A stretch of 64,000 nucleotides of DNA, from the NCBI GenBank assembly GCA_021791195.1, contig JAJYXB010000023.1, positions 1 through 64,000 on the forward strand. The letters run 5' to 3'. Origin of the DNA: Actinomycetes bacterium (GTDB lineage: Bacteria > Actinomycetota > Thermoleophilia > BMS3ABIN01). The notes beneath the pieces are model-generated. The model was not told the DNA's origin. It did no database searches and saw nothing but the letters and a program-made list of their open reading frames with translations. Below are positions 12,390 to 15,649 of this stretch, piece after piece. Position numbers and translations under genes: made by a program. Within the stretch, counting starts at the first letter, position 1. Every line of letters begins with the position of its first letter.

Positions 12390-12677
12390 ATGAGCAAACT
12401 GGGAATTCTTGTTAACACCGACAAATATCTGGATGATGTTGTCGGGCTTGCCAAGGCAGCCAAGGCCGCCGGTCATGATGTCACCATCTTCGGAATGGAC
12501 GACGGCACGCTGCTGATGGCCGATATCTGCAAGCAGCTTGGCGAAGCCGCGGAAGTTTCATATTGTGAGCACAGCGCTTCGCCGCGCGGCGTTTCCGGTG
12601 TCGAAGGCGCCACGGCCGGTAGCCAGTTCCAGAACGCGGTCATGATGCATGAAGCTGACAAGGTGGTGGTTTTCTGA
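12390..12677 (+). CDS. DsrE/TusD-like small sulfur-relay protein
   Basis: 95 residues, GGAGGTG upstream. The Rossmann-like DsrE fold is suggested by GILVNTDKYLDDVVGLAKAAKAAGHDVTIFGMDDGTLL, the VSYCEHSA segment with a candidate persulfide cysteine (also a cysteine in ADICKQL), and the C-terminal strand ADKVVVF. The ATG of the next gene overlaps its stop codon. DsrE-family proteins accept and transfer sulfane sulfur, with TusA as a common partner; tusA lies 265 bp upstream. Assignment to a particular DsrE subgroup is not possible by eye. Confidence 0.8.
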   Translation: MSKLGILVNTDKYLDDVVGLAKAAKAAGHDVTIFGMDDGTLLMADICKQLGEAAEVSYCEHSASPRGVSGVEGATAGSQFQNAVMMHEADKVVVF

Positions 12678-12955
12678 TGGCAGACAGCAAGAAAATTGCA
12701 GTGATCATCCGGGACAGGCAGGACGAAGCTCTGCGCATGTCCGTAGGCCTGACGCTCGAGGGCGATGAGATCACTGTCATCAACCTGGGCGACCCGATCG
12801 ACCATCATGGCGACAACAATCTGAACGTGGAGACTCTCGGCGACCTGGACTGTGGCCGCATCTCGGTTAACGAAGCTGACGAGGGATTCGAGCACATGAC
12901 GATGCAGAACATCCCCCAGAAGCTGCTCGAGTTCGACCACGTCGTCCCTTACTAG
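12677..12955 (+). CDS. Second DsrE/DsrF-like small protein
   Basis: 92 residues, start overlapping the previous stop by one base. Pattern KIAVIIRDRQDEALRMSVGLTLEGDEITVINLGDP matches the first half of the DsrE fold (strand, amphipathic helix with MSVGLTL, strand), with a second half FEHMTMQNIPQKLLEFDHVVPY. A single cysteine (DLDCGRI) lies mid-chain. It probably forms a heteromer with its two neighbours, as TusBCD or DsrEFH do. The low overall similarity leaves its exact role open. Confidence 0.72.
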   Translation: MADSKKIAVIIRDRQDEALRMSVGLTLEGDEITVINLGDPIDHHGDNNLNVETLGDLDCGRISVNEADEGFEHMTMQNIPQKLLEFDHVVPY

Positions 12956-13715: not shown

Positions 13716-14813
13716 TCAGATCTTCAGGAAGCGCCTGAGGGCCAGGCCGCTGCCGACCGAGCCGAGGACGCCGCCGCCGCCGATGATGAAAAGCAGCAGC
13801 CAGAAAAGGGGCACGGTCTCCGCGCCGAGGAATGGCATCTGTTCGACGATATTGTTCACGAAGAAGTTCTGCACCAGCAGCACCATGATGACGGCGCCGG
13901 TGGCGCCGACCAGGCCGGTGAACACGCCCTCCATGACGAAGGGCCAGCGGATGAACCAGTTCGTGGCGCCCACCAGCCGCATGATCTCCACCTCGCGCCG
14001 GCGGGCGAAGATCGACAGGCGGATCGTGTTGGAGATCAGCAGGATCGAAGCGACCGCAAGCAGCGCCACAAAACCGGCGCCGCCAATGAGGATGTAGTTG
14101 GTGGCCTTCAGGACGCGGTCGGTGGTTTCGCCGCCGGTCTTGATGCCATCGGTGTTGACGATCTCGCTATGTGCGCCGTGAGCGGCTGCGGTCGTCCCCA
14201 CCTGCGCGCGCGCCATAGGCACCGTGTCCCCGTTCGGGTCGCCGGAAACCCGCATGACCTCGTTATCGATCCGGAAGTACATGCCGGCTGTGAACTTGGT
14301 GCCGTCGCCGGCAGAAACCGGCATCGAGGTGGCGCTGGGGCTCAAGTCAGCGTTCAGATGGCTGCTGATATCGTTGTCCACGACCGGATTGGTGTAAAAT
14401 TTGCGCGCCACCGAGTCGATGTTGTTCTGGTCCTTGAGGAATATCTCGTAGGAGGCCGGCAGCGGATTGCCGGATAGCGCGTTGAGCACATCCTCATGCC
14501 CCTTCATGCTCTCACGCAGCCGGTTGAGCGCCTCATCCTTGCTGACGAAGTTGACGTCCTTGACCTCTGGCATCGATTTGATCTGGTCGCCGAGCTGGTT
14601 GATCTGGTCCTGGGAGGCGGCATTCTTGATGAAGACCTCGATCTCCAGTTTATTGCGCACGCCGCTGGTGGCGTTCTGCAGATTGAAGAAGACAAAAGCG
14701 CCGATGCCGAGCACGAACATCGACACGAGCACAGTGACAATCGCCGCTACGCTCATGACCCAGTTGCGTGTCAGGGAGTCGAGCGCTTCGCTGAAAAAGA
14801 ATCGGAATCTCAT
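13716..14813 (-). CDS. ftsX: Cell division ABC permease FtsX with inserted domain
   Basis: 365 residues, about 65 longer than usual. The N-terminal membrane segment is followed by the extracytoplasmic domain (IEVFIKNAASQDQINQL, VNFVSKDEALNRL), and the C-terminal three membrane segments carry the FtsX signature NTIRLSIFARRREVEIMRLVGATNWFIRWPF. FtsE/FtsX control peptidoglycan hydrolases at division. Residues about 148-222 are an insertion not expected in FtsX: SAGDGTKFTAGMYFRIDNEVMRV, then ARAQVGTTAAAHGAHSEI, resembling repeats of phage structural proteins (typically ID-x-E, VTRGQxGTTAAAHAAG). Its start abuts the ftsE stop. Confidence 0.93.
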   Translation of the reverse strand: MRFRFFFSEALDSLTRNWVMSVAAIVTVLVSMFVLGIGAFVFFNLQNATSGVRNKLEIEVFIKNAASQDQINQLGDQIKSMPEVKDVNFVSKDEALNRLRESMKGHEDVLNALSGNPLPASYEIFLKDQNNIDSVARKFYTNPVVDNDISSHLNADLSPSATSMPVSAGDGTKFTAGMYFRIDNEVMRVSGDPNGDTVPMARAQVGTTAAAHGAHSEIVNTDGIKTGGETTDRVLKATNYILIGGAGFVALLAVASILLISNTIRLSIFARRREVEIMRLVGATNWFIRWPFVMEGVFTGLVGATGAVIMVLLVQNFFVNNIVEQMPFLGAETVPLFWLLLFIIGGGGVLGSVGSGLALRRFLKI

Positions 14814-15491
14814 TTACCTGTACAGCCCCTTATCCTCGTCACGGATGACCTTGCCGCCACCCAGCGCGATGACGCGTTTACGCATTTTGTCCACCATTTC
14901 GCGGTCATGCGTGGCCATCAGCACCGTGGTTCCGGTGCGGTTGATGCGGTAGAGCAGCTGCATGATGCCGACGGAGGTATCGGGATCGAGGTTGCCGGTG
15001 GGCTCGTCGGCTACCAGCAACGAGGGATGGTTTACAAAGGCGCGCGCCACGCTGACGCGCTGCTGCTCGCCGGCGGAGAGTTCGTCCGGACGGTTGCTCA
15101 TCTTGTCGCCCAGGCCTACCAGCTGCAGGATTTCCGGCACTTTGCGGCGGATGGAGCGGGCTGGCTGCCCGGTGACCCTGAGTGCATAGGCCACGTTTTC
15201 GGCCACCGTGCGGTTGGGCAGCAGTTTAAAATCCTGAAAGACGCAGCCGATGCTGCGGCGGTGGTGCGGTACGGCGGCGCGGCGCATGCGCTGCAGGTTG
15301 CGGCCGGCAACAGTGATGCTGCCCTCCGAGGGCTCGAACTCTTTCAGCAGCAGCCGGATGAACGTGGATTTGCCCGATCCGCTGTGTCCCACGAGGAAAG
15401 CGAATTCGCCCCGCTCGATGTGAACGCTGACGTCCTCCAGTCCGATGATATTCGGATCGTAGGTCTTTGTGACATTTTCAAAGCGAATCAA
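14814..15491 (-). CDS. ftsE: Cell division ATP-binding protein FtsE
   Basis: 225 residues from TTG at 15491, chosen because AGAGGTGAG lies just upstream and FtsE normally begins M-I-x-F-x-NV; an ATG seven codons earlier is possible. Walker [11 protein letters not shown]-loop CVFQDFKLL, signature [14 protein letters not shown] (alanine in place of the usual first glycine), Walker [13 protein letters not shown], switch region ATHDREMVD. It drives FtsX to activate wall hydrolases. In many high-GC Gram-positives prfB is upstream of ftsE; here prfB is 7 kb away. Confidence 0.95.
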
Positions 15492-15649
15492 CTGCTCACC
15501 TCTGGCTAACATCCCCCGGACCGGGCGGCGTCATGATTGTGACATCGCACGCATGTGCCCTGGATTGAAAAATGGGAGATATTTTGAAGAAACCGCATCC
15601 GCCGGTGCGGGCCGGCCGCATCCGGCCGCGTCCCCGGCGAATCAAACTC

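Follow-up and report, generated by a model that had tools for sequence, protein, structure and literature searches.

FtsX is a core division protein, and the copy encoded in the 64,000-nucleotide stretch of actinomycete DNA analyzed here (the window) carries an additional segment between its extracytoplasmic domain (ECD) and its second transmembrane helix (TM2). The locus thus raises the questions of whether this segment is a genuine insertion, to which kind of domain it belongs, where it came from, and what it may do in a division machine.

The ftsX gene and the boundaries of its insert

The features of the locus, all on the minus strand, are the following:

13716..14813, minus strand: ftsX, the gene that bears the insert (365 aa; PF18075 FtsX_ECD, E 6e-25; PF02687 FtsX, E 4e-16)
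14376..14648, minus strand: extracytoplasmic domain of FtsX, with a Porter-like core and an X-lobe (residues 56–146; PF18075)
14151..14357, minus strand: insert, a small all-beta domain resembling those of phage tails and capsids (residues 153–221; alignment, profiles and fold)
13719..14072, minus strand: C-terminal permease domain of FtsX (residues 248–365; PF02687)
14814..15512, minus strand: ftsE, the partner ATPase, directly upstream of ftsX (ABC_tran, E 2e-35)

The protein has the PF18075 ECD, the PF02687 permease domain and the adjacent ftsE that identify it as FtsX. The ECD is complete and ordinary, with positions 1–94 of the 96 in the PF18075 profile matched, and ftsE is 87–94% identical in relatives both with and without the FtsX insert. 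The stretch between the ECD and the permease domain is covered by no Pfam-A model, and the insert domain has no Pfam entry. Elsewhere in the window, two small ORFs on the plus strand (12390–12677 and 12677–12955) adjoin genes for YeeE/YedE-type sulphur transport and TusA; neither ORF has a Pfam match at 1e-5, and, judged by position, they probably encode DsrE-like sulphur-relay proteins.

The limits of the insert were established by comparison with a genus-mate, G001, whose FtsX lacks it. The matches of G001 to residues 1–152 and 222–365 of the window FtsX are directly adjacent in its DNA (6198/6199), which defines an in-frame insert of 69 amino acids, residues about 153–221, at window positions 14151–14357. 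At the junction, G001 reads VDNDTGTH followed immediately by NGVRTGG, and the window FtsX reads VDNDISSH, the insert, and then DGIKTGG. An insertion in FtsX had been described in preliminary form at 14148–14372 (residues 148–222) and was placed outside the membrane; it proves to be real, with limits correct to about five residues, and it is extracytoplasmic, in the connection between the ECD and TM2. Most of the insert-free relatives in the family have a short loop at this site, which indicates that the insert entered a pre-existing loop; the FtsX proteins of several other families have no loop there.

The domain was searched for in 19 genomes of the family, 299 of the class and 396 of the phylum. 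Within the family it is found in 7 of the 19 genomes, always in ftsX and always as a single copy. G001 lacks it with a clean junction, and it is likewise missing from all other FtsX proteins examined, including that of Bacterium BMS3Abin01, which is among the relatives (Thermoleophilia/Actinomycetes metagenome-assembled genomes). In the genomes of the class and phylum the domain is present elsewhere, but never in another FtsX. The insert is thus not a common FtsX extension, with no FtsX outside the family bearing it in these class and phylum samples. An assembly or frameshift artefact is ruled out by the seven independent metagenome-assembled genomes with open frames. An in-frame mobile element of the Rickettsia palindromic element type was also rejected, given the single copy in the genome and the lack of direct or inverted repeats. 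In the literature library that was searched, no paper joins FtsX, domain insertion and phage tail.

A virion-type domain and its cellular carriers

AlphaFold2 predicts that the isolated insert folds into a domain that is all-beta except for one helix of four residues, with a mean pLDDT of 91.7. The insert also folds in the model of full-length FtsX, although more weakly (pLDDT about 70–85); because that model as a whole is weak (pLDDT 63), it does not fix the orientation of the insert. In a Foldseek search of the PDB with the predicted domain model, the top four matches were all phage virion proteins, namely the VP1 capsid (TMq 0.85), the JBD30 baseplate (0.76), the GP4 fibre (0.71) and the AP22 tailspike (0.60). 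A search of BFVD gave 64 matches at E below 1e-3; among the matches listed, most are from Caudovirales and many are named tail fibre. Barrels of F1-ATPase and pyruvate kinase were matched at a TM of about 0.5–0.6 with no sequence support, and were treated as generic barrels. The structure prediction thus yields a confident small beta domain whose best fold matches are virion proteins.

Sequence comparisons lead to the same group of proteins. Among PHROG tail families, the insert has matches in phrog_1101 (E 6e-7) and phrog_9851 (E 1e-5), and it also matches tail fibre and tail sheath genes of cyanophages. A profile of the domain built from 16 sequences matches, in the PDB, a minor tail protein (8vjh, 3e-5), the VP1 major capsid (9in6, 5e-4), the GP4 tail fibre (8jov, 0.002) and the JBD30 tip protein (8rk3, 0.004). 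With a profile from the seven FtsX inserts alone, a phage tail protein (L041) was matched at E 2e-12, along with many others, some below 1e-7, and the reversed-sequence control gave no match. The motif core (E, R, T, H) that is common to the phage copies is conserved in the FtsX inserts. A likeness to beta-lactamase inhibitor protein II (E 0.06) was repeat-driven and was dropped; a plasmid search gave no match to the insert, and no relative came out of two viral-contig scans in which single FtsX inserts served as queries. The resemblance to phage tail or capsid-associated domains first noted in the preliminary description is thus backed by sequence profiles and by fold matches alike.

The best fold matches, the major capsid protein of Vibrio phage VP1 and the JBD30 tip, share with the insert an E...R-G-x-x-(G)T-x-A-A core, and the N-terminal domain of the Ralstonia phage GP4 tail fibre resembles the insert in fold with 29% sequence identity. 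The hosts of these domains are of a different nature. The VP1 and JBD30 domains are integral to capsid and baseplate proteins and the GP4 domain is part of a virion fibre, whereas the insert is part of a membrane transporter-like protein.

The domain is not confined to virion proteins. It occurs in PilX-like and PilV-like prepilins of the class and phylum, and in another N-methylated pilin-like protein (L105) with several copies, for which there is no Pfam model. It is also borne by a secreted peptidase-like protein with an HEXXH motif (L126; at aa 206 of the ORF), by a multi-copy secreted protein and by apparent prophage genes of the class and phylum. In CXXCH (cytochrome c-like) proteins of two phylum relatives (L121 and L123, in G531 and G365), the domain lies between the haem-binding motifs, and its position is the same in both families concerned. 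A PilV-like prepilin (L175–L182, f4 family) in a sister family of Thermoleophilia is a second natural case of insertion, with the domain present in G137, G266 and G252 and cleanly absent from G061, G056, G176 and G262. Like FtsX, this prepilin is an extracytoplasmic, membrane-anchored host with close relatives that lack the domain; it differs in the identity of the host protein and in that its domain copies fall on the other side of the domain tree. The prepilin copy is 64–70% identical to phage copies, which suggests that phages and envelope proteins exchanged the domain comparatively recently. The initial designation of the insert as phage-structural was therefore right as to its virion likeness and too narrow as to its range. 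Because the domain is also found in cellular proteins, it is best regarded as a promiscuous extracellular and virion insertion domain, borne for the most part by the tails and capsids of phages and sporadically by pilus and secreted proteins.

Retention of the insert and its position at the hinge

In an FtsX tree built without the insert columns, the insert bearers and G001 form one group (100/100), in which G001 has an internal position next to G002 and G003. A single clade also unites the inserts (95/72; recovered in 94% of bootstrap trees), and its sub-groups are those of the FtsX tree; the most economical history of the insert is one gain and one loss. G007 (L087, L142), which has a long branch, joins the bearers when the tree is built from FtsX, whereas neither FtsE nor the concatenated sequences place it there, and its transketolase and hydrolase are likewise not grouped with those of the bearers; this discord may reflect a horizontal transfer of ftsX or a long-branch error.

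The insert is under purifying selection, with a dN/dS of about 0.2–0.25 in the pairs least affected by saturation (G004/G005, about 0.25; G002/G003, 0.18), and its rate of evolution is about double that of the remaining ECD. A recent transfer, as judged by composition, was rejected, since the GC3 of the insert is like that of the rest of the gene and its composition is fully ameliorated. Taken together, purifying selection and the matching GC3 indicate that the capture is old.

In published structures, the FtsX ECD clamps a coiled-coil hydrolase or activator via its X-lobe and Porter sheet, as in the E. coli FtsX–EnvC complex (PMC7668044). In the FtsEX–RipC complex of M. tuberculosis, the ECD hangs from hinges at TM1 and TM2, and RipC occupies a cavity formed by the two ECDs, the small loop and the upper ends of the TM helices (PMC10694151). 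The FtsX ECDs described have nothing beyond the Porter core and the X-lobe (PMC7668044, PMC10694151). These two systems, which belong to the type VII ABC superfamily, have the same ftsE–ftsX order as the window and a full FtsX_ECD and permease, and the window FtsX differs from the FtsX of FtsEX systems by an added beta domain of 69 residues that lies between its ECD and TM2. A further likeness to the known FtsEX systems is that coiled-coil NlpC/P60 hydrolases are encoded elsewhere in the genome. Two such paralogous proteins have a CwlO/RipC-like layout (NLPC_P60 at G000:C3:8397-8678 and G000:C14:66176-66439) and are likely clients of FtsX. A related set of coiled-coil NlpC/P60 proteins is found in 19 of the 19 family genomes; no co-variation of the hydrolases with the insert was seen across them, and, with the set the same in the presence and absence of the insert, no co-evolution with a partner is visible.

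The preliminary description proposed that the insert could alter contact with wall hydrolases. The X-lobe and Porter core, the known hydrolase-binding surface, are intact, and the insert lies elsewhere, at the ECD–TM2 connection near the hinge. This position, together with the unchanged hydrolases, suggests a tuning module and not a new partner system. We envisage that a beta domain of ~69 residues, similar to those displayed on the tail fibres, tail tips and capsids of phages, was captured in frame by an ancestor of some members of this Thermoleophilia family, and that the landing site was the short loop already linking the last ECD strand to TM2. The domain would fold by itself just outside the membrane beside the ECD–TM2 hinge, and would leave the coupling to FtsE and the hydrolase-binding X-lobe undisturbed. 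It could alter how the hinge is spaced or how stiff it is, or add a contact with the wall or with a hydrolase, possibly the coiled-coil NlpC/P60 protein held between the two FtsX subunits. Such a module would tune, and not create, the control of wall cutting by FtsEX. We give this reading, an accessory module at the hinge that tunes FtsEX, an even chance of being correct.

Almost as good an account is that the captured domain is a tolerated passenger that folds harmlessly in a permissive loop and has no role in FtsX, with selection acting on foldability and with occasional loss. G001, nested among the bearers, is cleanly devoid of the insert and otherwise normal, which indicates that the insert is dispensable. 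The landing in a short variable loop, the faster evolution relative to the ECD, the unchanged hydrolase repertoire and the arrival of the same domain in a prepilin loop of the sister family are all consistent with a passenger. This account is harder to reconcile with the retention of the insert in at least six species with saturated synonymous divergence, with its low dN/dS, and with the conservation of the motif core; we regard it as a serious possibility that falls short of being probable.

Origin of the domain and significance

A phage origin of the insert is likely. In the domain tree, the FtsX inserts fall, with weak support (81/77), on the side to which the majority of tail and fibre domains from phages belong, and the prepilin group lies apart. 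The phage-to-cell direction is favored by the preponderance of virion proteins among the relatives of the insert and, weakly, by this tree. Were the domain instead a general extracellular module of the phylum that phages also use, the insert would derive from a cellular surface protein, as might be suggested by the copies in prepilins, CXXCH proteins and the secreted peptidase of the same class and phylum. The placement of the FtsX inserts in the domain tree and the fact that their best structural matches are virion proteins speak against such a source, and we consider it unlikely. That the segment is an ordinary FtsX extension of this lineage with a chance likeness to phage motifs is refuted, although small beta domains can look alike and F1-ATPase barrels match the fold weakly, by its clean absence from close FtsX relatives, by profile matches at E-values of 1e-12 where the reversed control gave none, and by the first rank of phage proteins in both sequence and fold, and is highly improbable.

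We tentatively propose that an adhesion or stabilizing module of the phage tail type may have been domesticated into the division machine, where a new extracellular contact, with a wall polymer or a hydrolase, would modulate wall cutting. In broader terms, virions and membrane-anchored envelope proteins may exchange a promiscuous domain that has no name. Since copies occur in the tails and capsids of phages as well as in prepilins and secreted proteins, naming and testing the domain would account for many segments left without annotation. For the family itself, a virion-type domain at the hinge that several species have retained and one cleanly lacks constitutes a natural experiment on the signaling from FtsEX to the hydrolases.
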